Assembly (NCBI GenBank): GCA_037974965.1
Contig: JBBPFI010000013.1
Location: 310,001 to 374,000, forward strand
Length of the DNA stretch: 64,000 bases
Origin: Dacryopinax spathularia
Lineage: Eukaryota; Basidiomycota; Dacrymycetes; Dacrymycetales; Dacrymycetaceae
Direction: 5' to 3'
Below are positions 288 through 19,788 of the stretch, in pieces. The position numbers and the translations under genes were made by a program. Every line of letters starts with the position of its first letter. The stretch's first letter is position 1. The notes under the pieces were generated by a model. The model did not search any database, was not told the origin of the DNA, and saw nothing but the letters and a program-made list of their open reading frames with translations.

Positions 288-759
288 TGAACTGCTCGGT
301 CCTATCGTAGATAGTCCCTTTAGCTTAGTTCTTTAATGGGACAGTGTTATTGGCTCTATCAAAAGGAGTGTGGTGTATGTGTGTAGGAATCGAGTGATAG
401 CAGATGGGTAACGCTCGATAGTAACGCGGATAACGACAGCCAGAGTTATAGACGCGGATCGTCTGGCGGGGGGGAAGGGAAGGAAAAAGAGAGAAGAGCA
501 CCAGAGGAAACGAGTGGGAATCACAGTAAAAACGGAGTGGTCGCCTGCGCAAATCTGCCAGGCACAGGCACAGGGAGCGCCTCACGTCTCAGGTGCATCC
601 ACCGCCGCGCGTCGGCAGTGGGTAACGCCATGCGGTAACGCTTCGATGGCCGCTCGGCTATGGATAACGCGGGCCGGTAACGCCATATCGGCGGTATTTG
701 GGATCGGCGATATCGGTGCATGATAATTTGTTGTTAATTAACTAACTACGGACAGTACA
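288..759 (-). repeat. 3' LTR (472 bp)
   Basis: This is nearly identical to 10510-10981. On the minus strand it begins TGTACTG and ends GCAGTTCA, giving the TG...CA ends of LTRs. I see two substitutions against the other copy: C at about 441 where the other has G, and A at about 523 where the other has G. The LTR contains many short GGTAACGC/GCGTTACC-like words that also recur inside pol and the antisense gene. In the plus direction it lies immediately upstream of the accessory gene and could supply its promoter; this is inference. Confidence 0.95.
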
Positions 760-1190: not shown

Positions 1191-3743
1191 ATGGTACCGC
1201 CATCGGTACAACGCGAGCAACGTCGGCAAACGGCGGTACTTGCGCAGAAGGCGAAAGTCGACGCATGGGTGAAGAGCTGCGTGGATCGCGTGCACATGCG
1301 GGCGACGTCCAAGGCGGTAGGACAGGCGATGAACGCCATGAAGATCGTCCTCGCCTATCCTAATGAAAAGAAGTGGTCCGGCATTGTAGCGTGGATGGGC
1401 GTTAAGGAGAATGCGGAGTTGCTCCGGGTGCGTATTTCGCAGGTCCATCCCGAATGAGACTAATACGTCTACAGCGTGATGTGACGGCGATTCTGCGGAA
1501 ACATCCGTACACGTTGGCAGCGATCGACCAGTGGCGTGCGATGTTGCTGGGAGAGGTCACCCAGCGCATCTGGCTGGAGTATGCGAAGGAGAATGGTAAA
1601 AAGGTGAGTACCAGTGCGCGCCGATAGATACCGCTTGCTAACGATGCGTTACAGACCGACAAGTTCGAGTTGGGCCTGAAGGGCGTAGCGACGCCTGGCG
1701 AAGAATTCGATTGGGTTGAAGAAGAAACCCTGGACGATTTTGAGGTTCCAGACCTCGATGAGGAGGACCCCGTCCAAGCCGACGAAGCGCCCGCCGCTTC
1801 AGCTGGGGAGGCGGTATCGACGATACCGACAGAATCGTCCGGCGGTAAGAAGACGGCGACAGAACCGGTGCCCGCCGAAGAGGAGACGCCTGCGGCGAAG
1901 AAGGCGCCCGCCAAGGGAAAGGGAAAGGAAGTTTCCCGGCCGAAGGAGGTGACGAAGGAGAAGGAGAAGGAGAAGGAGAAGGAGAAGGAGAAGGAGAAGG
2001 AGAAGGAGAAGGAGAAGGAGAAGGAGAAGGAGAAGGGAGTCGCGGATGAGGAGGTGGCGAAGAAACGCCAAACTCGGGCGTCCGTGAAGGCCGTAGCGGA
2101 GGCGACTGCCGAGGCGGATGAGAAGCGGCGCAATGAGCTGATGAAGAAGCGTAGGGAGGAGACAGCGGCGGAGAACGCCAGGGCGCCGCCTGCGATGGGC
2201 TCGGGCACGCCCGGCAAAAGGGTGAGTGCTTTTTCCTTTATATGTGCGTTATCACCGGTATTGATCGTCGCCAGTCCGCCAACAAGGGCGGTAACAGCGG
2301 TACCCCCGCGAAGACTGCGGTACCCGCTGCTGCACCTGAAGCCGCTCCGGTCGCGGCACCGCCGGCCAAGAAGACGGTAACACCGGCCAGAAAGCCCGTC
2401 AAGCCTGCGGCAAGGCCCCTGCCCGTCATTTCGGACCCGATCGAGGTGCGTGCGCCGCGGGGACGAGGTCAAGAGAAGCCGGCGAGGGGAACTACGCCCG
2501 GTGGGGAGGAAACGTGGGGCGGCAAGGTACGTCAGCAGGTTAATTTATAACTTGAATTGTGCCTGATATACGTTGCAGATCCTGCGACCTCCGTCGGGGT
2601 ATGAGCTGTTCTGGACGATCCAAGGAACGCCTTGGTTCGTTACGAAGGCGGCAAGGGCGGTATGTGCGGTAATTATCGCACATGGGTAATTGCTAACCAG
2701 AGGTGTATAGTGCAAATATTGCACGGATCGGAAGCAGGACTGCCTCATTTCGCATGAGGGAGGGCAGTGCACTGCCTGCCACCTACGTCGCAAGATGTGT
2801 TCGATTGCGAAACCCGATGGTATGTGGTTCTTGTTTAGTAACGGCGTTACCGCTTACTAACGCTTCGTTTTGTGTGTGATAGAGCGCCGCGGTCGCGTTC
2901 GGGGCAAAAAGGGAGGCGCTGCCGCCAAACGTGAGACGTCCGAGGCTGTAACCGTCGTGACGGAGAAGTTCCGTGAAGGAACAATTCAAGACGACGTTGA
3001 AGCGTTCGAATATGAGGCGACGCGCGGTAAGCGGTATTACAGCGGTAATGAGTCGCCATTCTAATGCGTTTGTAGACGCGGCGCTCGCCAATATCAACTG
3101 GTTGGTGCACCACCAACAAGTGCTGAATATGTTGCTGTCTGCCAACATGCGCCGGCTCAACGTGGCGGACAAGGACGGCTTGGAGAGCGTCCTCATGCTC
3201 AGCGCCACAGAGGAGGAGATTCCCGGAGCGGAATTGACCGGGAGGAAATTTTTCCTGGAGCCCACAAGCTTCCCCTTCCGTATTCTCACCCCGGAAGACG
3301 AGAAGAAGACGTGGAGGGAGCTCCTCGCCGACTCCGTTAAGGTTCCGACCGCCAGCGAGGCCGATCTCGAATTGGACCTCACCGACAACGATACCGCCGG
3401 TAACGCCGCCAGCGCTTCGGACTGCGTCCGAGAGGTCCGACCCTCCACGAGTGGTACGAAGAGGAAGCGCGTTTCGCCCGAGCTCGGTGCCGAAGGAGAA
3501 GAGGCGGAAGAGCCTCAGGAAGAAAGTGCTCGCCCAAAGAGGGCGAAAAAGTCGGTAGAGCGTTATGGTAACCCTACCGACCCGATTATCGCGGCCAAGG
3601 AAGCGAGGGAGGGAGATGAAGAGCAGCAGGTGGACGCTGCTCTGGAGGAGGAGTCATCCGTTGATGACTCCGATAGCGACTACGAGGTGCCTCCTCCAGG
3701 TACGGATGACTTGCGGGAAGAGGAAGGAGAGGACGAAGTGTAA
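1191..3743 (+). CDS. Spliced antisense gene with Zn2Cys6-type cluster, carried by the retrotransposon
   Basis: Eight exons join in one frame: 1191-1427, 1475-1603, 1655-2221, 2275-2526, 2579-2659, 2711-2819, 2883-3026, 3076-3743. They give 728 residues. Every intron is 47-63 bases, GT...AG, usually with a CTAAC/CTAAT-like branch site. The N-terminal 150 residues look helical. Then come an acidic stretch, a (Lys-Glu) tract at residues 223-249, an Ala/Pro/Lys linker and a cysteine cluster C423-x2-C426-x6-C433-x8-C442-x2-C445-x6-C452, the exact spacing of fungal Zn(II)2Cys6 DNA-binding domains. The C-terminal 200 residues are acidic with basic patches (KRKR, RPKRAKK) that could be nuclear signals. 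The gene lies entirely inside the element, opposite to gag-pol, starts 432 bases from the 3' LTR and converges on the pol stop. Nuclear, DNA- or chromatin-binding function is inference; it could aid targeting, silence the host or the element, or be a captured host gene. Confidence 0.75.
1955..2035 (+). repeat. (AAGGAG)n hexamer repeat coding (Lys-Glu)n
   Basis: Thirteen and a half AAGGAG units lie in frame within exon 3 of the antisense gene and encode alternating Lys-Glu followed by a final Lys. Such a tract forms a long single alpha helix with i to i+4 salt bridges. It is likely to vary in length between copies. Confidence 0.9.
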
Positions 3744-4068: not shown

Positions 4069-7000
4069 CTACGGATTCCCCGAAGTCGGTTCGGGTAACG
4101 CATCGGTATTGGCGTCGGTAACCTCTGCCGTGAGACGATACGGGAGGTCTTGTAAGCGTTTCATAAGCTCATCCACTTGCGGTTTGAACTCCACCCTGGT
4201 GTGAAAAGGCACCAATCTGAATCCTGCGACGGCTTGGCGTCCGATCGTACCGTCCAACTCAGCTATGGTATATGCTCCTCCACGATTCCGTTTGATAACG
4301 ACGAAAGGGCCGATATAACGCGGTAACGTTTTGTCCCGAAGGTCTCCGTCATTTCGGGAGTTGCGCAGTAGAACCAAGGAGCCCGGATCATACGATGCGT
4401 CACGGATGAGGTTTGCATACTTCTTGCGGAACCGTTCCGCTGAGTGTTCTCGAGCCAGGAGTATTTTCTCATGAATGCGGGCGAGGTCCTCCGGTCTCCG
4501 CTCGAGTTGTCTCGCGCGTCGGGTGATTAGTTCCTCTCGTGAGCATAGTTCAGACGGACTTTCGACAAGGAAGGTAGCTTCGACCAGGTCTATAGGCAAT
4601 GTTGGGTGCGTCCCGTGTGCCATATAGTATGGCGTTAACCCGGTAACGCTGCTGAGCGTTACGCGTTCGGCCCAGAATATGGTAGGGAGGATCGCCGGCC
4701 AACCCCCTATGTTGCCCTGTGCCGCTCGTACAATACTTTCTCGTACTCCGCGGTGGGATTGTTCGACCAACCCGTTTGCTCGGGAGTTGTAGCCCGATAT
4801 GCGGATGTGGGATATCGCGTATTTTTGCGTTAGCGTCGAAAGCGCGTTAACCCATGGAGTACCGTTGTCGGTGACGATTTCATATACAGTTCCCCACCTG
4901 CATAAGAGCGTATTGAAAATGAAATCGGCCAGGTTTTTTCCACTTTCATTCCGTAACATACACCATTCTGGATAGTGCGTTAACGAACATCGGGCTTGTG
5001 CAATGTATCGGTACCCCGCTTTCGGCGTTTTCGAAATGGGCATAAGCATGGTATCACAGTATGCTTTTCCGAACAGTTTCGCGGGCGTCTGCACAGTTGG
5101 GGGGAGGAGAACCCTCGTTGTTTGCTGTTGTTGACACGATAGACAGGTTTTGATATACCAGGCTATGTCCTCCGCCATCCGTGGCCACCAAAATCGTAGC
5201 ATAAGATGTGCTCGGATGGTCCTTAGTCCTTTATGCCCTAGCTCGTCATGGGCCATGCGTAACGCTCGGTAACGCCGCTCGTACGGTAGGTATAAGAGGT
5301 GGTTACCGTTGTCGTCCCTCTTGTATAATTCACCATTATTTCCTATGAAGAATCGCGCCGATATTTTCAGTATTCTTCGCCATTCCTTGTCAGACGTGTC
5401 CTCAGGTCGCTTCAATGTACGCTGGTATTCGATGATCTTCTGAATATCCGTGTCCATCTTTGCGGCGTTAGAGGAAAGCGGTAAGAAGGACGAACTCGGC
5501 GTTATTGTATCGTTCCCCTCCGGCGGGCCGTGTTCAGGTACCGCCATCGGTACTTCAGATGAGTGACCCTCTGTGGCCCAGGGGAGTTCTCGTTCCTGCC
5601 ACGCTACTGGGCTGTCCGGCGGCGTGGTTAATGGGGACGATATGTAGTGGCCCTCATCCACATTGTGCAGGCGCTGGTCTGGTAAGGAGGGAGTTTCACT
5701 CGTTGGAGATTGAGGGGGCGTCGTAAGCGGCGATAACGGTGCGTTATCCGGCTTTTCGTGCGGCAGGTCTCCCTCTTCGGGCCAAAAAAAGACAGGCACT
5801 CCAGGCCTGGGAAGGGGGGGACGGCGGGGAAAGGTCAACGATAGATAAAGGAATAGAACAGGTGTCGTTGATAGGTTGAGGGTGTCTTCGTCATATTCAG
5901 GAACATCCTCTTGAGTGGGATCGGTGGTGGTAGGTGGGCGGCGGGAGAGACCATCCGGGGCGGTATGCTTTTCCGCAGGGACGTGAACGAGGTCGAAGTT
6001 AAACAAGGCAATGTAGGCGAGCCAACGATTGATGGTAGTATTTGGCTGGATATCAGGGTGACGAATCATGCCTTTCAGATATTGGGCATCAACCTCTAGA
6101 GTGAAGGTAGAGAGGCCGATGAGCCAAACGCGGTAAGCTTTTAATGCACGGAAGAGTCCATAGCATTCCAGCTTCGCTTGAGAATAGCGGCTCTCTCGAT
6201 CATTCCACGTAATGGAACCGAATCGGGAAGGTCGTCGGCGCCCGGTGTCGTCGAGCTGATATAAGACAAAACCGACTGCGATCGATGAGGAGTCGACCGC
6301 GAAGATAACGCGATTAGAAGAGGCGTAATCGATTGGGCGGAGAACGTTATTCTCTAACGCCTGCTGAGCCGCCGCTTGGAGGGTGCGGACCGCGGTAAGA
6401 TGGATGTCGTTAAAGAGAAACGGCACGTTTTTCTTTTTGAGATCCTCAAGGGGGCGTGCTATATGTGCGTAATTGCGGATGAACGTCCGCATAATCCCGA
6501 CAGTACCAAGGAAAGAACGGACTTCCGAGATGTTTTCACAAGGGAGTTTCCAGTCCAGGATCTTTTGAATTTTGGAAGGGTCGGGTTGGCGACCGGCGTA
6601 TGAGCAGCGGTGACCAAGGAGAATGATTTCCGGCACAGCAATCTCGACCTTTGCACCGGACAGTGTTGCGCCAGAATGTTCGATGCGTGTGAGAATGCGA
6701 TGAACGTCCCCCAGATGCTCCCAGATAAAACGGCGGATTCCTGCGTTGTGGGCGGTAGTTTCATAAGTACCGTCCGCCCGCTCATATCGCGTTGGTGGTC
6801 CTTTGATACCGCCGTCGTCAATGAAAGGTGTTGTGATGTGCGGTATCTCTGGTTCGAGTATGAATGTGACGTTATCCTGCATGATGCCCGGCATATTATG
6901 TGCTCCCATGGGGGCGACGCAGTAACGGAGCGGGCCGAGAGGGGACTGGAAAGTGGTAAGATCGCGGGAAGATGGAGCCAACTTGTGCTGTTCAAAACCG

Positions 7001-7794
7001 CGGAAGAAGTCGATGAGGGAGTAACAAGCACGGCCCCCATAGGATTCGATAAGATGTTCGGTAAGAGGCGGTACCGAAGAGCTCTTGATCATGACTCCGT
7101 TCAGGGGCTGTAGATTAATGACCGGTCGCAAGTCTCCATTCTTCTTTAGCACCACAAACCACGTTGAGCGGTACGCTGACTGTGCCGGTTCGTATGCACC
7201 GGCCTGGATCTTTTCACGGATCGTAGAGATCACTCTTTCAACTAACGCGGGCGGTATCGGTAAGTTGCGGTCTTGCCAGGGGGTATGTTCGATCGTGGGG
7301 AAGACCACAGGGTCGAAATAGTCGTCTCTGAAGCGGCCGATTTCCACTTCTTCCCACGAGAAGGCCATTTCATGTGTCCGAAGAATCCATGCCGCCAGTT
7401 TGACTTCCTCCGGCCAGAGGAAACCGTATTTGTTAATGCCAAGGGCATCGTAACGCTCCTGCGTTAATCGAATGCCAGGCGTAAAGGACGGCGGTTGGTG
7501 TGGTAGTGGAAGGAGGTCTTGTAAGGGGTCCGAAGGGAATCGGCGATGTATTTTGAGCTCTTCCGGATGAGTAGTTGCCACTGGTTTAACTCGATGCTCA
7601 ACCTTTTTGTATTTTCTGAGGGCCAGGCAGTGGAGCCGCTCGTCGTATGTGTACGTGCGCTGTAACGCGGTTACCGTCGGTAGGATCGTTAACGCTGGTG
7701 GGGGTATCGAGTTTACCGGCGTTGTGGTAAGGAAAATGTCTCCTCGGGCTGAACCCGACTCCTCGACTAATGAAAATCCGCAGGTGGCAAGGGG
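4069..7794 (-). CDS. pol: Ty3/gypsy Pol (reverse transcriptase, RNase H, integrase)
   Basis: The frame is open from just after a TGA at 7795-7797 to the stop at 4069, in -1 relation to gag-pro, which it overlaps by 28 bases. It has no ATG near its start (a GTG at 7581 is the first alternative start), so it is expected as a Gag-Pol fusion by frameshifting at 7773-7779. Counting from 7581, reverse transcriptase has the first catalytic Asp at 191 (SLIDFFRGF) and the active site as FIDD at 253-256 in place of the usual YxDD. RNase H residues are visible (AVDSSS, KLECYG, EVDAQY). A proline-rich linker with repeated SPLTTPP follows. Integrase has its zinc HHCC motif (HDELGH...CLSC) and Asp, Asp, Glu (YCDT, VTDNG, LVEQSH). 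It ends with a GPY/F-type module (YIGPF). No internal stops. Confidence 0.95.
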   Translation of the reverse strand, partial: PLATCGFSLVEESGSARGDIFLTTTPVNSIPPPALTILPTVTALQRTYTYDERLHCLALRKYKKVEHRVKPVATTHPEELKIHRRFPSDPLQDLLPLPHQPPSFTPGIRLTQERYDALGINKYGFLWPEEVKLAAWILRTHEMAFSWEEVEIGRFRDDYFDPVVFPTIEHTPWQDRNLPIPPALVERVISTIREKIQAGAYEPAQSAYRSTWFVVLKKNGDLRPVINLQPLNGVMIKSSSVPPLTEHLIESYGGRACYSLIDFFRGFEQHKLAPSSRDLTTFQSPLGPLRYCVAPMGAHNMPGIMQDNVTFILEPEIPHITTPFIDDGGIKGPPTRYERADGTYETTAHNAGIRRFIWEHLGDVHRILTRIEHSGATLSGAKVEIAVPEIILLGHRCSYAGRQPDPSKIQKILDWKLPCENISEVRSFLGTVGIMRTFIRNYAHIARPLEDLKKKNVPFLFNDIHLTAVRTLQAAAQQALENNVLRPIDYASSNRVIFAVDSSSIAVGFVLYQLDDTGRRRPSRFGSITWNDRESRYSQAKLECYGLFRALKAYRVWLIGLSTFTLEVDAQYLKGMIRHPDIQPNTTINRWLAYIALFNFDLVHVPAEKHTAPDGLSRRPPTTTDPTQEDVPEYDEDTLNLSTTPVLFLYLSLTFPRRPPLPRPGVPVFFWPEEGDLPHEKPDNAPLSPLTTPPQSPTSETPSLPDQRLHNVDEGHYISSPLTTPPDSPVAWQERELPWATEGHSSEVPMAVPEHGPPEGNDTITPSSSFLPLSSNAAKMDTDIQKIIEYQRTLKRPEDTSDKEWRRILKISARFFIGNNGELYKRDDNGNHLLYLPYERRYRALRMAHDELGHKGLRTIRAHLMLRFWWPRMAEDIAWYIKTCLSCQQQQTTRVLLPPTVQTPAKLFGKAYCDTMLMPISKTPKAGYRYIAQARCSLTHYPEWCMLRNESGKNLADFIFNTLLCRWGTVYEIVTDNGTPWVNALSTLTQKYAISHIRISGYNSRANGLVEQSHRGVRESIVRAAQGNIGGWPAILPTIFWAERVTLSSVTGLTPYYMAHGTHPTLPIDLVEATFLVESPSELCSREELITRRARQLERRPEDLARIHEKILLAREHSAERFRKKYANLIRDASYDPGSLVLLRNSRNDGDLRDKTLPRYIGPFVVIKRNRGGAYTIAELDGTIGRQAVAGFRLVPFHTRVEFKPQVDELMKRLQDLPYRLTAEVTDANTDALPEPTSGNP

Positions 7795-10091
7795 TCACAA
7801 GGTGGATCGAGAGCAAGCGCCGGATTTGCTTGTATGAAGGCCGCCGTATCATCTGCGTTCTCCGAAGGGTCTGCCTGACGGGGTTTCCAGGGCCGAGTAC
7901 CGATTGTAACGCGGGTATCGGTATTGGGACATTTCAGCGTTAACTGCATTTCTCCTGAAGTCCCGTAGAACGTTTGACATTGTAACAGTGTCAGGAAGGG
8001 GCGTCCGAGAAGAATATGGAAAGGAGATTCTTTCACGATGTGGACTTGTAATAGGAAAACGATCGGTCCGATGGTCACGCGTAGGTTGCGGATACAGCCT
8101 AACGTCATTTCGGATTGGCTGTTGGCAGATTCCATCTGTATGGTATCGTCCGGTAAGAATGGGATTCGTAGCCGCTTCCAGGCATGAAAGTTGATAGCAA
8201 CAATCACCGACCCCGAGTCAATGCAACCGGTCATGGGGATGTCGTCATCTCCAACCAGTAAATCGATTTCTCGTAACGCCACGAGTCGTTTTCCTACGAT
8301 AACGCCCGACGGACTGTCGATAGCTCCAGACACATGTAATGCTTGTGCCAGCGTCGGTACTCCATCAAGCGTTACCGTGTTCTCCTGACTGGGCTGAATA
8401 TTCCCAGGAGTACTGTTGGGATGACCAAAGGTCAGAACGTGGTCACCCGTCTTCGGTACCTGTTTGACTCCCGACTGGTAATGCAGCATCTTCCGTACTT
8501 CTCCGGATACCGCCATGAGTCCGCGCAGTGTCAGATTAATCGGTACATCCAAGGTTTGATCGAGGACGCGGCGGACTACTTCGTCGTTCTCGATAGGGGC
8601 TCGGAGCTGGGAACGGGACTCTGGTTTGGAATTTGACTCCTCCAGAGAGGAGTCCTCATTGAATCGTTCCGGGCGTGCTGATAATCGTTCGGGAGTCGGT
8701 ACCGAGGCGGTACCGTCTGCCTCTGAGTCGCGCGGTTGTACTGGTTTGCCGAGATATTTGGTGGGAAACGGGCGGCCAACAGGTTTACCCTTCTTCCGGA
8801 TATTTGATATTTCGGCTTGTAAGACATGTATCCGTTGTAGATCACTGGCAGAGAGGCTATTCTCCTGATTATCGGTACTAGGCGTTATATCTACGTTTGG
8901 CGTATCGAAGGTAAAGGCCTGAACCGGTACCGCTCGCGTCGTGAGGAGGTTTACTGGGGCACTGGGTCGCGTTGGTATTCCGGCTTGCGCGTTAAGTTCT
9001 GCGGTCGTATTGCCGGGGTATTGGCGATGCCATTGCAGGACTCTTTCTTTAAGCGTTCGGGCCTGAATGTACCCGGGGACGTATCGTCCGGTAGGTAGAA
9101 CTAGTCGGCCCTCTGCGTTCCGGATTACGAGTCCTTGTCGTATGTGTTCCTCCGCATCGGGGCATTGATTTACCATATGAGGTCCGTCGCACCAGATACA
9201 CCCATTCGGACGGGGTGGAATACCGCCGTTACCTTGAGCGTTATATGCCGGTATCGGTCGGGATTGGGGTGGAGCGTTGCCTTGATATACTCCTTGTCGG
9301 GGCGCCGACTGGCCCTGCTGGAGGAGGGTATGGACAGCGTTGGTCAGTGTGTTCAGATTCGACACCATGGATGCGAATGCGTCCGATTCCTCTGTTTTGA
9401 TTTTCACTGTCGGTTCGATTTGGTGAGTCGTTGTACCGTCGGATAACGCAATGACCGGTGCCTCTGCAGAAGTATCACCCAGGAGCCAGTTTGCAGCTTG
9501 AAGAACGTGTTCCATTGGGTAGGGGTCGTCAGGATAATTGTCGGGAAACTTAATCTGCAGACGATGCTTAAGTCTTTCGCGGAACACCGGATGAAATCCG
9601 CGGAGAAATTCTCGATCGCGTTCAAGGACTGAAATCCGGTCCTTCCGTAGTAACCATGAAGCGATCCTTGTGAATTCTCGGTTGTACTCGCCCAACTGGC
9701 CTCGGTGGCTCATAGGAATCGTAGCAGAGCGGTTTACCAGGTCTTCCAGGTTCGTTCGGGAATACCGCCTTTCGTCGGTATCGGCGCCAGGATATAACGC
9801 TAACACTTCACGCTTGAATCGGCCGTAGTCGCCACCGGTGAATGACGCCAGGCTCCGCCAGGTCTCCTCGACTGTCCCTGGTGGATATCGCACCGACGCT
9901 AGGATTCTGTCTTGTCCCCGCAGGCTGCAGGCATCTGCACACTGTTCAAAATCTTCAAAGTACCGCCGCACGTCGGTAGGGTTCGTCGAAGCAAAGTACG
10001 GAGCGTCCCGGCTATTTTGGAGGGGCATTTGCCTTCGGGGAAGGCGCTCCTGAACTGGGGGTCCTTCTGCTTCCTGATCGAGTGGGTCCAT
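7767..10091 (-). CDS. gag: Gag-protease polyprotein of the Ty3/gypsy element
   Basis: 774 residues from the first ATG (10091). Residues 30-210 hold a helical capsid-like retrotransposon gag domain. A zinc knuckle follows at C298, C301, H305, C310, i.e. C-x2-C-x3-H-x4-C, one residue shorter than the canonical CCHC spacing. An aspartic protease domain has its catalytic D-S-G at about 625-627 (GCIDSGS) and the matching ILLGRPF strand at about 693-699. The frame ends 28 bases inside the open pol frame, so protease is fused to Gag and Pol is reached by a -1 shift. The reading frame continues open for 360 bases upstream of this ATG (separate entry), so the true N-terminus may be longer. The product would form cytoplasmic virus-like particles. 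Confidence 0.93.
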   Translation of the reverse strand: MDPLDQEAEGPPVQERLPRRQMPLQNSRDAPYFASTNPTDVRRYFEDFEQCADACSLRGQDRILASVRYPPGTVEETWRSLASFTGGDYGRFKREVLALYPGADTDERRYSRTNLEDLVNRSATIPMSHRGQLGEYNREFTRIASWLLRKDRISVLERDREFLRGFHPVFRERLKHRLQIKFPDNYPDDPYPMEHVLQAANWLLGDTSAEAPVIALSDGTTTHQIEPTVKIKTEESDAFASMVSNLNTLTNAVHTLLQQGQSAPRQGVYQGNAPPQSRPIPAYNAQGNGGIPPRPNGCIWCDGPHMVNQCPDAEEHIRQGLVIRNAEGRLVLPTGRYVPGYIQARTLKERVLQWHRQYPGNTTAELNAQAGIPTRPSAPVNLLTTRAVPVQAFTFDTPNVDITPSTDNQENSLSASDLQRIHVLQAEISNIRKKGKPVGRPFPTKYLGKPVQPRDSEADGTASVPTPERLSARPERFNEDSSLEESNSKPESRSQLRAPIENDEVVRRVLDQTLDVPINLTLRGLMAVSGEVRKMLHYQSGVKQVPKTGDHVLTFGHPNSTPGNIQPSQENTVTLDGVPTLAQALHVSGAIDSPSGVIVGKRLVALREIDLLVGDDDIPMTGCIDSGSVIVAINFHAWKRLRIPFLPDDTIQMESANSQSEMTLGCIRNLRVTIGPIVFLLQVHIVKESPFHILLGRPFLTLLQCQTFYGTSGEMQLTLKCPNTDTRVTIGTRPWKPRQADPSENADDTAAFIQANPALALDPPCDPLPPADFH
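7773..7779 (-). promoter_or_regulatory. Candidate -1 ribosomal frameshift heptamer GGATTTT
   Basis: In the Gag frame the sequence reads G GAT TTT CAT TAG, so the heptamer sits one codon before the gag-pro stop. Slipping back one base pairs as GGA TTT and enters the pol frame (TCA TTA GTC). It differs only in the last base from GGATTTA, used at the pro-pol junction of mouse mammary tumour virus. The overlap of the two frames is only 28 bases and this is the best slippery string in it. No downstream pseudoknot was established. Confidence 0.5.
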
Positions 10092-10451
10092 GTTGCTGCG
10101 GAGTTCTAACTGGTCGGCTAACTCTGATGCGAGGTTAACGACCGAAGGGTCCGGTAATTGATGTAAACGTTGTTCTAGGAGAGTGGATAAGCGGGTCGCT
10201 GAGCTGTCGGCCGAAGTCGTGTCAGTGGAGTTCCCTTCTTCCGGATCCAGGGTATCTCGAGTCGCCCGAGTTCGGTTCGGTTCTATCGAGGAGGCGGCAA
10301 TCGGGGCGGTATCGTGGGCGGTATCAGCGAGCGGTAATTCAGAGGCAGGATCGATAGGTTGATGGAAGTCCGCGGTCCTCTCCGGGGACGGGTAGTAGCG
10401 TCGACGTGTTTTGACAATGGCGGGCGATATCGATAAGCAAGGGAGTTTTTG
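10092..10451 (-). other. Open gag frame upstream of the first ATG
   Basis: After an in-frame TAA at 10452-10454 the gag frame stays open for 120 codons to the ATG at 10091 without containing an ATG. The translation is well-behaved protein: acidic, Ser/Thr/Asp-rich, then two amphipathic Leu-rich helices just before the ATG (STLLEQRLHQL and VVNLASELADQL). Either Gag starts at a non-AUG codon, or an exon upstream is spliced in, or this is a leftover of a longer ancestral Gag. Confidence 0.6.
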
Positions 10452-10509: not shown

Positions 10510-10981
10510 TGAACTGCTCGGTCCTATCGTAGATAGTCCCTTTAGCTTAGTTCTTTAATGGGACAGTGTTATTGGCTCTATCAAAAGGAGTGTGGTGTAT
10601 GTGTGTAGGAATCGAGTGATAGCAGATGGGTAACGCTCGATAGTAACGCGGATAACGACAGCGAGAGTTATAGACGCGGATCGTCTGGCGGGGGGGAAGG
10701 GAAGGAAAAAGAGAGAAGAGCACCAGAGGAAACGAGTGGGAATCGCAGTAAAAACGGAGTGGTCGCCTGCGCAAATCTGCCAGGCACAGGCACAGGGAGC
10801 GCCTCACGTCTCAGGTGCATCCACCGCCGCGCGTCGGCAGTGGGTAACGCCATGCGGTAACGCTTCGATGGCCGCTCGGCTATGGATAACGCGGGCCGGT
10901 AACGCCATATCGGCGGTATTTGGGATCGGCGATATCGGTGCATGATAATTTGTTGTTAATTAACTAACTACGGACAGTACA
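10510..10981 (-). repeat. 5' LTR (472 bp)
   Basis: It is the same length as the LTR at 288-759, with two substitutions and no indels. TG...CA ends. It provides the promoter of the element's genomic RNA, which runs toward lower coordinates. Confidence 0.95.
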
Positions 10982-10985: not shown

Positions 10986-11261
10986 TTATCGATGTCTGGT
11001 GTGATGCAGCTTTCCTGCCTCATACCGCAGGTGACGGATGGTCGTAGTTACGTAAGTACACAGAACTGCCGATCCCCGCCCAACCCGACGCGAATGATGA
11101 TGGTGTTCTCATTTGCAGCATCAGGACAGAAAGAGGGGGAAGTAATCCAAATGCTACTGTACCGTAGTTGCGGAGCTCGACGATTTCTGTGTTCGGTATG
11201 CGATTTGACGTTGCCGGTTGGCCCCTAATGGCGGACGGCGCGCAATGCGCAGAGCTCGGCT
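10986..11261. repeat. Segmental duplication copy A, right part
   Basis: Continues the homology broken by the element and aligns with about 18300-18561: shared words such as CCCGACGCGAATGATGA and GTAGTTGCGGAGCTCGACGA occur in the same order. It is the 3' flank of the broken reductase copy. No gene of its own is visible. Confidence 0.75.
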
Positions 11262-12230
11262 CTAAGCCGCCTTCAACCGCTTCCCCAGAACCAAGAGTCC
11301 TTCCGCCGTCTCCTTCACGCAGGCCTCAGATCCCATCCATCCCAGAACAAACTCAGTGGCGAAGTGCGGCTGGGCGGGCTCATTCTTCGAGGGAGTGATT
11401 CTGCCTTCTTTCGCAGGTCGGGGAGGGACCGGGCGAGGACGTGCGCGATTTGCGCATAGGAGTAGTGACCGGCTACGGCTGGGTGGCGCTGGTTTGCTGA
11501 TCGGGGGTAGGAGAGGGTGTCGGCGTGTATCCTTGCCCTGTGTATCAGAACAACCCGTCAGCTCATCTTCCCGTCCGCCGCCGATGAGAACAAAGAAAAG
11601 GCGTGCGCATCTCGTACCTCAGTCCATCTGGGCACCAACGTAGGCGGAACTTCCTTCGTCGACGCATTCATGAGCAGCCAAATATCCTGGCTGCTCGTAT
11701 TCAGCTTATCCATACCCTCGACAAGCCGGAACGTCGGTCCGTAGATCATCGGAGGACAAACGGTCGTCAGGCTCAACTGCGGTTTTGGTGTCTTCACAAG
11801 CTCCCATGCCGCTTGTTCGGCAACTTTCTGGACGCTGCCCAGCGGCGAAATAGAGGAGACGAAAGACCAGGACGAGCCATATCTTTGCCAAGTTCCTTTG
11901 ATGCGTAGGGAAGAGACTGGCGACGTGGAAGGATGTGGTGGCAGCCTTTTGCGACGGCATCGAGGGCGTTTGTCGCCGCGATGTCGGGAATGATAACCGG
12001 CTCGTTGGATGGTGCGGCGGTGGGATGGAGGGCCTGAAGTCGTCGGCCTTTGGATTGAGAGCGCTGCGGACAGAGTTAGGATCATCTTGCGCGATGCGGG
12101 AGGGACGGCGAGGAATGTGCAACAGTACCTTTACCCCTGTATCCCTGCTTGATCCAAAATCTCCACAACGAGCTACATCAAGTGCAGGCTTTTCCCAGAA
12201 CCCGTTCGACGCCCGCAGAGCGTTACCAAG
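11262..12230 (-). pseudogene. Broken extended-SDR reductase, copy A
   Basis: Reads parallel to the intact gene at 18562-19788, including the same stop position (CTAAGCCGC on plus) and recognisable pieces of exon 4, exon 3 (the segment specifying YGP..., DKLNTSSQDIWLLMN) and the start of exon 2. About 220 bases of exon 2, including the Tyr-x3-Lys active site and the splice junctions around it, are replaced by unrelated sequence. Exon 1 is barely recognisable. Frameshifts break the rest. It belongs to segmental duplication copy A, whose 3' flank is interrupted by the retrotransposon. Confidence 0.75.
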
Positions 12231-14070: not shown

Positions 14071-14499
14071 TATATCTCAGACAGCTTGAGCAGAATAAGG
14101 TTAAACATCAAGACTCAGATTCAGATTCAGACAAGAGATCATCGCGCAAGAAACAGCATACATCACACTCGAGCGCCGAGAGTCTTCACCGTGACATTCC
14201 TCACTGATCGAGAAACTGGGTCTCACCCTCTAACGATCGACGCCTCCAGATCAATCACCTGACCTCGGTACCAGTCGCAGACCCAAGCTCCCCGAGACCG
14301 ACTCTCGAGTGCCCTAGGTGTCGCTGGCATTCCTCTCGCATCGACTCCCTCCAGCGGAATGTCGACGACCTCACTCTCTTCCACATTAACCCCTCTCCTT
14401 CTGGCGCAACGGAAATGCGGAACGAAACTGCACGAGTACAGGCGCATATGTGAACGTGGGTTAGAGATTCTACTGGTCGCATCGGCATGAAGGTGGACT

Positions 14500-15680
14500 G
14501 TGTTGGTCACCGGTCCGCCTGGCTTCATAGATGCCGCCGTGACGCTCGAGCTCATCAAGCAGAGATGCAAGGTCGAGGGTACTACTGTACGTTCCTTGCT
14601 GCACCTCCTGCATTGGACAAGGAGGTACTAACGGTGTTTCCAGCGTTCTCAATCCAAGGCCGATACCTTTACCCCTCTCCTCCGTTCAGCCGCCGCATCA
14701 TGCATCGAATGGGTTATCGTTCCCGACATCGCTATGCCGAATGCCGTCGACGCGGCCGCAAAAGGCTGCGATCACATCCTACACGTTGCCCCCTCTATCC
14801 ACTACGCGTCCAAGGACTTTGACAAAGACATGCTCATTGGAAGGAAGGGCACGCTAGATGCCCTGCAGGCTGCGGTGCTGTAGCCGAGGGTGAAGCCGTG
14901 TCGTTGTGACGAGCAGCTTTGCGGCTGTTGTTGATCATCTGGCGGGTGACGGGGAGGGGATACATATACGGAGGAAGACCGAAACCCGACCACATGGCAG
15001 CAGGCCAAGGCAATCGGAAATCCCGGGTTGGCCTATGTTGCCAGTACGGTTCGTCCTCGTCTTCCATTGCTCCAACGTATTTAAACCGTTGTATAGAAAG
15101 TCGCCGAACAAGCAGCACGGAACTTCATGGAGGCTCAGAAGGCCCATTTCAGTCTTAGGACCGTTTGTCCTTCGACGATCTATGGACCGCCATTTCCGCC
15201 TGTCGAGAGTATGGACAAGCTCAACACGAGCAGCCAGGATATCTGGATGCTCATGAACGGGTCGACGAAGGAGATTTCGCCCAGGCCGGTGGCCGTATGG
15301 ATTGACGCGCTGGATGTGTACGTTTATCGTCTAGTCTCAGGGGTGGACAAGAAAATTGGCTAACAGATCGTTTAGATTCACAGGGCAAGATACACGTCGA
15401 CTTCCTCTCCCCACCTGGGAGGAGCAAAGCACCGCTATCTATCCGTAGCGGGACACTATCCCTACTCGCAAATCGCTCACATACCCGCCCAATCCTTCTC
15501 CGGTCTGGCGAAAGAAAGCCGAATCACTACTCCCTCGAAGAACGAACCCTCAGCTACACTTCGCGACTGGCTCGATTAAGGCGGAGAAAGCGTTTGATCT
15601 TGGATGGATCGGCTTTGAGACTTGTTTGACGCAGACGGCGGTGGCCCTCTTGGTATTGGAGAAGCGGATGAAGGCGGCTT
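14500..15680 (+). pseudogene. Broken extended-SDR reductase, copy C (opposite strand)
   Basis: Every exon of the intact gene at 18562-19788 has a counterpart here on the plus strand in the right order: the GFxG-type nucleotide loop (now TGPPGFIDA, last Gly lost), intron 1 with TTTCCAG end, the exon 2 body, intron 2 ending ATAG, the exon 3 block with STIYGPPFPPVES-like sequence, and the C-terminal block ending near 15680. An in-frame TAG interrupts exon 2 at about 14881, several single-base indels follow, and the catalytic Tyr-x3-Lys region is damaged (YVAST). Non-functional. Confidence 0.8.
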
Positions 15681-18007: not shown

Positions 18008-18561
18008 CGGGGTATCCGACGGGGTACGAAGACGCGAACATATTACCGGTAATGGATCAACCCAGCGCATCAATACCTCGGGCAGGGCAACCCTTCTTCC
18101 TAATCGGGCGCGGCTCCCGCTGAGGACACCCTATAATCTTCTTGACGCTTCACGCCAAGAAGGCCGCTAGAACCGGGATGAGTAGGGTCTTGCGTCAGCT
18201 GGCATAGCAAGGCAAAGGAAGGACCTACGCAGTCCGACGTAGTCATCCATAGGTGCTGACATTCGTCATTCGAAAGGAAAGCGGAGGGGAAGGCGTGAGT
18301 ATCTATATGTCGCAAATGATGCGCCTCCTCCGCCTCAGAGCATAGATGGCAGGCAGTAGAAATCACGCGAGTCCGTGGAACTGCCCATCCGTCCTTGCCA
18401 GGCCCGACGCGAATGATGAGGGTAGATGTCCTGTTTTGCAGGTCCAGGACAGAAAGAGATAGAAAAATCCAAATTATACGTAGTTGCGGAGCTCGACGAT
18501 GCATGTACTTGGTCTGCGACTAGAGGTTACCAGCAGACGGCGCGCAGTGCACCGAGCTCAT
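18008..18561. repeat. Segmental duplication copy B, 3' flank of reductase
   Basis: Aligns with 1-287 and then 10986-11261. Unlike copy A it is uninterrupted. A 134-codon minus-strand frame (18100-18504) exists only in this copy and is broken in copy A, so I do not call it a gene. Confidence 0.8.
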
Positions 18562-19788
18562 CTAAGCCGCCTTCAACCGCTTCTCCAATTCCAGGAGCGC
18601 CTCCGCCGTCTCCCTTACACAAGTCTCAAATCCGATCCATCCCAACCCAAACTCTTTCTCTGCCTTACTCGAGTCAGTGGCGAAGTGCGGCTGAGGCGGC
18701 TCGTTCTTAGAGGGTGTAATTCTGTCTTCTTTCGCCAGATTGGGGAAGGCTTCAGCGAGGACGTGCGCGATTTGAGAGTAGGAGTAGTGGCCGGCTACGG
18801 CTAGGTAGCGCTGGTTTGCTGTTCCGGGGTGGGAGAGGGAGTCGACGTGGATTTTGGCCCTGTTAATGGGGACGCTGCGTCAGCCAAATCTTCTGCTCGG
18901 CTCATGTGAGTGAGGGACAGACGTACACATCGCGCACGTCGGTCCACACGGGCAACAAGGTAGGCGGGACCTCCTTCGTCGACCCATTCATGAGCATCCA
19001 AATATCCTGGCTGCTCGTATTCAGCTTGTCCATGCTCTCGACAGGCTGGAGAGGCGGTCCGTAGATCATCGGAGGACAGACGGTCGTCAGGCTGAAATGC
19101 GGTTTCTCGCTCTCCATGAAGTCCCATGCGGCTTGCTCGGCGACTTTCTATAAAAGGGGTTAGATGCTTTTGAGCAGCAGAATAGTAGGGGTAGTGAGAC
19201 CAGGACGGACCTTACTGGTAACATAGGCCAACCCAGGATCTCCGATCGTCTTTGCTTGCTCCCACGTCATCGGGTTCCAGTCCTTTTCCGTATATGTATA
19301 CCCCGCCCTATCTCCCGCTAAGGGATCGATAACAGCCGCAATGCTGCTCGTCACCACGACCCTCTTCACCCTCGGCTCAAGCGAGGCAGCGCGCAGGGCG
19401 TTTAACGTACCCTCCCTTGCGGGGATAAGCATGTCTTTGTCGAAGTCCTGGGACGCGTAGTGGAAGGGGGAGGCGACGTGCAGGATGTGGTCGCAGCCCT
19501 TTGCGGCGGCATCAAGGGCGTTTGGCGCAGCGATGTCCGGAACGATCACCCATTCGATGGATGGCGCGGCGGTGGGATGGAGGGCGTTGAAGGCGAAGGC
19601 TTTGGATTGGGAGCGCTGAAGACTATCATCAGCATCAAGGTGGACGATAGGACCAAGGTGAAGTGAGAGGGACGTACGACTGTGCCTTTAACCTTGTACC
19701 CGTGCTTGATAAGCTCGAGCGTCACGGCTGCGCCTACGAAGCCCGATGGACCAGTGACGAGCACAGTTTCCCCCTGAGAGTCCGACAT
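18562..19788 (-). CDS. NAD(P)-dependent epimerase/reductase, extended SDR (copy B, intact)
   Basis: Exons 19788-19678, 19615-19211, 19147-18927, 18859-18562 give 344 residues, the usual size for the family of dihydroflavonol reductase-like, Gre2-like and aldehyde/ketone reductases. Residues 9-18 are the Rossmann motif TGPSGFVG (T-G-x2-G-F-x-G). The catalytic Ser is in VVTSSIAAV, the Tyr-x3-Lys in YVTSK at the end of exon 2. YGPP...DKLNTSSQDIW is a substrate-side block shared by all copies. It is cytosolic, probably reducing a carbonyl with NADPH; the substrate cannot be told. The intron 2 donor is GTCCGT, weak but required to keep the frame, and the same junction in copy D has a good donor. 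Two broken copies and one intact paralog lie within 11 kb. Confidence 0.88.

Follow-up and report, generated by a model that had tools for sequence, protein, structure and literature searches.

An antisense gene carried by a Ty3 retrotransposon of the fungus Dacryopinax spathularia encodes a six-cysteine protein that may read a short DNA word scattered over the element itself. The element, whose family we call A, is young and occupies positions 288 through 10981 (minus strand) of the window, the 64,000-nucleotide stretch analyzed here (contig JBBPFI010000013.1, herein C13, positions 310001 through 374000; the genome comprises 29.2 Mb in 24 contigs). The gene lies between pol and the 3' long terminal repeat (LTR); it is under purifying selection and has homologs in three families, and each of these families is dense in a word of its own that is retained in most copies whose gene is open and lost in three broken stretches. 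We consider the chances about even that the self-encoded zinc-cluster protein binds the family word across the element, with anti-silencing for gag-pol expression as its likeliest use.

The first-pass annotation had described an eight-exon gene for a 728-residue protein in this position, and the exon chain indeed joins without a stop codon; its seven introns (47 to 63 nt) are all GT-AG. The genome holds six copies of the family A antisense region (a DNA search gave seven matches, all within those six). The five uninterrupted copies, among them that of the window, each have eight open exons and seven GT-AG introns; in the sixth, on C7, exon 8 is split by a nested element of the related family B2, and the seven introns are still GT-AG. 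That nested element (C7:1298444-1318958) is itself young, its LTR pieces differing at 1 of 268 positions. Relative to the most distant copies (on C17 and a second copy on C13, herein C13b), exons are 72 to 86% identical and introns 40 to 66%. The ratio of nonsynonymous to synonymous divergence (dN/dS, Nei-Gojobori) is 0.14 to 0.24 in all 10 pairs; the corresponding values are 0.06 for pol and 0.13 to 0.19 for gag (three of three pairs each). The gene is open also in C15 and C13b, the two copies with a split pol frame. The LTR pairs of the six copies differ by 0 to 1.3%, while dS between the two A subgroups is ∼1 in the antisense gene, which argues that the gene has been maintained long-term across rounds of copying. 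Because frames and splice sites hold in all five copies, exons diverge more slowly than introns and dN/dS is low, the gene is more than a chance assembly; the comparison of copies confirms a real, intron-bearing gene under purifying selection. Divergence is uneven along the element among the A copies of the window, C15, C17 and C18. For the window copy against C17, gag has a dS of 0.12, pol 0.54 and the antisense gene 0.97; for the window copy against C15, gag has 0.42 and the antisense gene 0.07. This pattern suggests recombination between copies.

Two related families, B1 (L021 through L024) and B2 (L020, partly the same copy as L026; L025, L027, L028, L029, L036, L037), are Ty3 elements whose reverse transcriptase (RT)-RNase H is 65 to 68% identical to that of A, and each of their loci has an antisense six-cysteine cluster at the same position. 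The spliced models encode 654 residues in B1 and 626 in B2. The number of introns differs (seven in A, nine in B1, ten in B2), and the three genes share a phase-0 intron immediately ahead of the first cysteine, with a pair of phase-1 introns beyond the cluster. All nine introns are GT-AG in four of four B1 copies, with open frames in three (L024 has one stop); over seven B2 copies, 69 of 70 introns are GT-AG (one L027 intron is GT-AA in the alignment) and six frames are open (L037 has one stop). Against two reference copies, dN/dS is 0.12 to 0.28 in nine of nine comparisons. Related elements thus keep the exon frames, the splice sites and each of the six cysteines, which was the check proposed in the first-pass annotation, and the persistence of 7, 9 and 10 introns fits its argument that introns antisense to the genomic RNA survive retrotransposition. 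On these comparisons the gene is an old module. We give almost no credence to the view that the exon chain arose from picking out open stretches by eye: at the level of sequence, such an artefact is refuted by the conserved frames and splice sites, the slower divergence of exons, the dN/dS values and the homologs in two further families.

A more distant family, C (L030 through L034; 53 to 54% identical), has ∼7.6 kb between pol and LTR, with two different spliced antisense genes of ∼1064 and ∼838 residues. These models are rough, resting on conservation and on a splice-path program that recovered five of the eight A exons exactly but not the 3' part of the B1 gene. Gene 1 is open in L031 and three of four further copies, as is gene 2, and dN/dS is 0.12 to 0.31 in eight of eight comparisons. 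Two scans found no six-cysteine cluster in family C, although a cluster split by an intron would escape them. On these models, members of this Ty3 clade in this fungus commonly carry spliced antisense cargo, of which the cysteine-cluster gene is the A/B form.

The A cluster, CKYCTDRKQDCLISHEGGQCTACHLRRKMC, has exactly the spacing C-x2-C-x6-C-x8-C-x2-C-x6-C that the first-pass annotation gave and lies whole within exon 6. It satisfies the Zn2Cys6 pattern, C-x2-C-x6-C-x(5-12)-C-x2-C-x(6-8)-C; the corresponding last two variable spacings are x19 and x6 in B1 and x20 and x8 in B2. Zn2Cys6 domains of the Gal4 type hold two zinc ions, with a short helix after the first cysteine of each half, and an AlphaFold2 model of the 36-residue cluster exon (six rows) places helices at residues 2 through 7 and 21 through 26, following the first and fourth cysteines (best model: predicted local distance difference test [pLDDT] 76.8, predicted template modeling score [pTM] 0.44; other four models: pLDDT 53.6 to 62.8). 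Between the second and third cysteines, A has Arg-Lys at the third and fourth places, as does the host domain L045; host clusters have basic residues at this position, and such residues contact CGG in known clusters, CGG being the half-site known for Zn2Cys6 proteins. A Protein Data Bank sequence search with the A peptide returned nothing, and the profile search gave an unrelated allergen as its best match (E 0.03), with the zinc-cluster factor Pho7 at E 0.19. The protein has a long Lys/Glu/Ala-rich part before the cluster, including the Lys-Glu tract noted earlier, which is present though of different length among copies, and a C-terminal part at its end. Basic stretches follow the cluster in all three families (RRGRVRGKK in A, RRHRVGVKR in B1 and RRGRKGRAR in B2), and the protein is probably nuclear.

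Family A elements are dense in the word CGKTA (K, G or T). The window element has 158 on both strands together, against 43 ± 6.7 (maximum 64) in 200 dinucleotide shuffles. Per kilobase, there are 33 in the antisense introns, 21 in the LTRs, 15 to 16 in pol and gag, 9 in the antisense exons, 7 in the leader between the 3' LTR and the antisense start codon, and 6 between the antisense stop and pol, compared with 2 in host DNA; the leader has no clear excess (3 words vs. 1.5 in shuffles). Coding constraint does not account for the words, as counts exceed those in synonymous-codon shuffles in gag (40 vs. 13.1), pol (58 vs. 20.6) and the antisense coding sequence (20 vs. 7.6). They lie on both strands (gag, 23/17; pol, 33/25; antisense exons, 15/5), so DNA rather than RNA is the likely target. 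CGG is present in 89 of the 158, and an overlapping pair, CGKTAMCG, occurs 16 times at offset 3; besides this pair, no fixed dimer spacing was found among the A words. In B1 the word is TATCGG (35 to 36 vs. 0.9 expected in 3.2 kb, in four of four copies; 26 vs. 1.1 upstream, in the one copy examined) and in B2 ATTTCGG (24 vs. 1.1 in the 9.7 kb of L020), alongside ATCGCG. TATCGG and ATTTCGG both contain CGG. The DNA flanking these loci shows no enrichment, except where another element sits (L026, L029).

Families were compared by a common score, the best 6-mer in 3.2 kb. Thirteen host segments score 11 to 34 (both values of 34 from low-complexity segments), the window A copy 41 to 54, the A copy on C17 38 and all four B1 copies 128 to 132. 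Among B2 copies, L025 through L029 and L036 score 33 to 43 (the best 6-mer of L025 being GAAGAC, not a family word) and L037 14. Family C scores 14 to 22, and no dense word was found in it; GGCTAC repeats beside one of its copies proved to lie in the flank, outside the LTR. With other antisense genes, no six-cysteine cluster found and no such word, family C counts in favor of a link between cluster and word. By these counts the words differ between families as do the clusters, which suggests that the protein reads its own word to recognize its own copies.

The words are also retained beyond what the divergence of the copies predicts. Noncoding words of the window copy are unchanged at 24 of 25 sites in C7, 19 of 27 in C17 and 17 of 27 in C13b, while the fractions of noncoding wordless 5-mers kept in these copies are 0.25, 0.22 and 0.22 with CpG and 0.31, 0.26 and 0.25 without it. 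Exon words are kept at 9 of 13, 12 of 20 and 11 of 20 sites, against 0.43, 0.21 and 0.23 of CpG-containing 5-mers. Over the same 3.8 kb, the window copy has 52 words and C17 59, of which 39 are shared vs. ∼11 expected from identity; the number of words appears stable while their positions turn over. Measured on 6-mers, B1 copies keep 88 to 92% of words vs. 72 to 73% of others and still hold 66 to 67 words; the B2 copies L027, L029 and L036 keep 82 to 87% vs. 63 to 67%. L025 (89 vs. 87%) is too similar for discrimination. In three broken B2 stretches (L037, L044 and a fragment at L029), only 35, 26 and 20% of words are kept, vs. 41, 27 and 32% of other 6-mers.

In the same broken stretches, 35 to 52% of CpG sites have changed to TG or CA, 3.8 to 6.6 times the rate at other C/G sites, as expected of methylated CpG; in 12 other copies the ratio is 0.8 to 2.3, highest in L036 and C15. 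The ratio of observed to expected CpG is 1.2 to 1.4 in A, B1 and B2 and 0.98 in host DNA. Five DNA-methylase (PF00145) matches above cut-off lie in two neighboring groups at C7:158032-163878. CpG-methylation silencing thus seems to act in this genome, and the decay together with the methylase matches means that there is something to counter. Judged by the retention of CpG-containing 5-mers, the surplus retention of words in the other copies is not explained by CpG decay, and selection holds the words in most of the copies whose gene is open.

These observations fit the following account. The spliced antisense gene would be expressed as a nuclear zinc-cluster protein, which would bind the word of its family: CGKTA in A, TATCGG in B1 and ATTTCGG in B2. 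Selection would build and hold the words over the whole element on both strands, the synonymous positions of gag and pol included, so that the protein could cover the DNA of its own element and the family recognize itself; the bound chromatin would stay open against CpG-methylation silencing and permit gag-pol expression.

Several results weigh against this reading. A Pfam scan, which covered the A protein of the three, gave no match up to E 1, PF00172 included, and a cluster profile compared with seven host Zn2Cys6 domains (ten host Zn_clus places were taken and three without the pattern dropped beforehand) scored 21.7, against 21.5 for the best of 20 cysteine-keeping shuffles; in profile probability, one such shuffle reached 70.2 vs. 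67.9 for the clusters. Formal membership in the Zn2Cys6 family, implied by the first-pass annotation, is not supported by a similarity hardly above that of shuffles, and we take the protein to work like a zinc-cluster DNA-binding protein. B1 lacks basic residues at the CGG-contacting position, and CGTTA, which has no CGG, makes up about half of the A words. The words were chosen from the same elements in which they were counted, retention in other copies being the less circular measure. L028, with an open gene, keeps 37 of 55 words (0.67) vs. 0.69 of other 6-mers and holds 39. L035, a distant Ty3 copy with no cluster in scans, scores 45 (with the G+C-rich CGCCCG), within the A/B2 range. Word loss in the broken stretches is partly CpG decay, because the words contain CpG.

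A further such point comes from a DNA transposon. The nonamer CGGTAACGC is not enriched in the genome as a whole (189 matches vs. 257 for the reversed pattern), and among the matches listed, the first 100 of the 189, a cluster at C2:1861137-1865474 marks a Plavaka transposon (PF18759, E 2.5e-86). In 9 kb of this locus (C2:1859500-1868500), GGTAAC occurs 40 times vs. 1.7 and CGTTAC 38 times vs. 1.9; these words spread over ∼7 kb, coding parts included. It has a 524-codon frame without Pfam match, which may resemble a dioxygenase. By these counts Plavaka is word-dense without a cysteine-cluster gene, and word density is not confined to gene carriers: either other families have other readers, or the words have a cause not seen here.

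That second possibility bears on a reading in which the words are unrelated to the antisense protein, being read by another element or host factor or left by a family-peculiar mutational or copying process, while the gene does a separate job. Plavaka and the raised score of L035 favor it. Retention against drift in noncoding DNA, on both strands, is hard for a mutational process to produce, as are different words in families with different clusters, and the RT-integrase proteins of family C manage without words; we regard it as quite improbable. A protein that binds the same words to repress transcription or reinsertion of its own family, a copy-number control sparing the host, would leave identical gene and word evidence and suits the small number of A copies (six in 29 Mb). 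The live families are nevertheless CpG-rich, fitting DNA kept unmethylated, and selection for self-repression on a mobile element is harder to explain, so that we hold such restraint to be improbable. Unlikely, in our judgment, is a role in the replication cycle (binding of cDNA or target DNA for nuclear entry, cDNA protection or insertion-site choice) or solely in activation of the LTR promoter. The LTR word density and the basic stretches, which suit nuclear entry, speak for it; the words in gag, pol and the antisense introns exceed the needs of a promoter.

The anti-silencing reading can be extended, tentatively and with rather less than even confidence, to the word-dense transposon: each mobile-element family would carry or borrow a reader of its own word, the word being spread by selection and the copy spared CpG-methylation silencing. 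The antisense gene would be the retrotransposon version, and Plavaka would perhaps have its own reader. A clade with a conserved cluster protein and a family word makes escape of fungal retrotransposons from DNA-methylation silencing testable; the antisense gene illustrates a way for an intron-rich gene to endure within a retroelement and would be a case of DNA-word selection shaping the synonymous sites of gag and pol.

The first-pass annotation had also raised capture of a host regulator. The B2 protein has 76 matches in its own genome, and part of the B1 protein has 22, in the four B1 elements; all placed matches lie in elements or their remains, three B2-like places being left unplaced (C9:730856-733260, C1:2478908-2479306 and C1:2493905-2499742), and a host origin is not supported. 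Two protein searches with the antisense proteins (1431 and 8000 candidates) found no relatives at E 1e-3, a weak negative because of word limits and low complexity; pol, unlike the antisense proteins, retrieves many fungal relatives.

The element is assigned to Ty3/Gypsy on its two LTRs, gag-protease and pol, and on agaricomycete relatives of its RT-RNase H. Its LTRs differ at two positions. RNase H and integrase zinc-binding domains match Pfam above cut-offs and the aspartyl protease just above cut-off, while the RVT_1 match, at 15.3 bits, falls short of its cut-off (29.6 bits). Among the 120 matches listed, identity of the RT-RNase H part to other proteins reaches at most 57%, and the few named relatives there come from Rhodofomes roseus, Pleurotus djamor, Candolleomyces and Leucocoprinus; one scan of viral contigs using pol found no relatives. 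The leader is 75 to 76% identical in C17 and C13b. Table 1 collects the features.

Table 1. Features of the family A element, in window coordinates
Feature	Position	Strand	Remarks
3' LTR	288..759	-	472-bp repeat of 10510-10981; 10 CGKTA words
Leader, 3' LTR to antisense start codon	761..1190	+	presumed promoter/5' untranslated region, by position only
Antisense exon 1	1191..1427	+	open and identically spliced in 5/5 copies
Antisense exon 2	1475..1603	+	open in 5/5 copies
Antisense exon 3, with Lys-Glu tract	1655..2221	+	open in 5/5 copies; tract length variable
Antisense exon 4	2275..2526	+	open in 5/5 copies
Antisense exon 5	2579..2659	+	open in 5/5 copies
Antisense exon 6, entire six-cysteine cluster	2711..2819	+	cysteines kept in A, B1 and B2
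Antisense exon 7, RRGRVRGKKGG at start	2883..3026	+	open in 5/5 copies
Antisense exon 8, stop codon	3076..3743	+	open in 5/5 copies; genome-wide matches of its frame
pol frame	4069..7794	-	1241 codons stop to stop; 58 CGKTA words
gag-protease frame	7767..10451	-	aspartyl protease match; 40 CGKTA words
5' LTR	10510..10981	-	472-bp repeat of 288-759

Outside the element, its left flank (window 1 through 167) recurs at 18010 through 18177 with 91 to 93% identity, and related stretches lie in direct and inverted orientation at 11163-12033, 14497-15357 and 18479-19767; together with the flank repeat, they form a local duplicated host family.

In the listed titles and abstracts of open-licence papers, we found no fungal LTR retrotransposon with an antisense zinc-cluster gene. 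The closest functional parallel is VANC of the Arabidopsis VANDAL transposons, which binds a nine-base word concentrated in the VANDAL family that encodes it and induces loss of methylation there (PMC5735166); the words are rare elsewhere, differ between related families, lie in tandem repeats of noncoding DNA, and by their density are thought to confer specificity. The likeness lies in the words, which are short, concentrated in one family, scarce outside it and different between related families, and by analogy with VANC, anti-silencing would be the first-choice function. Here, unlike there, the carrier is a Ty3 element rather than a DNA transposon (VANDAL/MULE), the words occur singly, on either strand and within gag and pol as well, rather than in noncoding tandem repeats, and the gene is antisense and has a six-cysteine cluster, with word binding and an effect on methylation as predicted activities. 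The closest positional parallel is found in the plant Ty3 elements Grande, RIRE2 and Retand, whose antisense open reading frames between pol and the 3' LTR are kept in many copies and mostly encode the TRP28 domain; those of Retand have a predicted DNA-binding domain, and family-specific tandem repeats are present in the plant elements (PMC11963269). The D. spathularia gene is like that of Retand in its position antisense to gag-pol and in its suspected DNA binding, but the A protein has no TRP28 (PF04195) match up to E 1, the genes here have 7 to 10 introns and a cysteine cluster, and single words stand in place of tandem repeats. With Gal4-type PF00172 factors, the A protein shares the cysteine spacing and the Arg-Lys position and may share the helices, which the model predicts after the first and fourth cysteines; unlike them, it has no Pfam match, the loops of B1 and B2 are of 19 and 20 residues, and none of the 24 Pfam Zn_clus matches in the genome falls within an A, B1 or B2 copy. 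TET/JBP genes on fungal DNA transposons have been proposed to free transposons from CpG methylation, and section 4.2 of the 2025 survey reports them in no retrotransposon (PMC12730594). The antisense gene resembles them as a fungal mobile-element gene proposed to counter CpG-methylation silencing; theirs is an enzyme, and the protein proposed here would be a reader of a DNA word.

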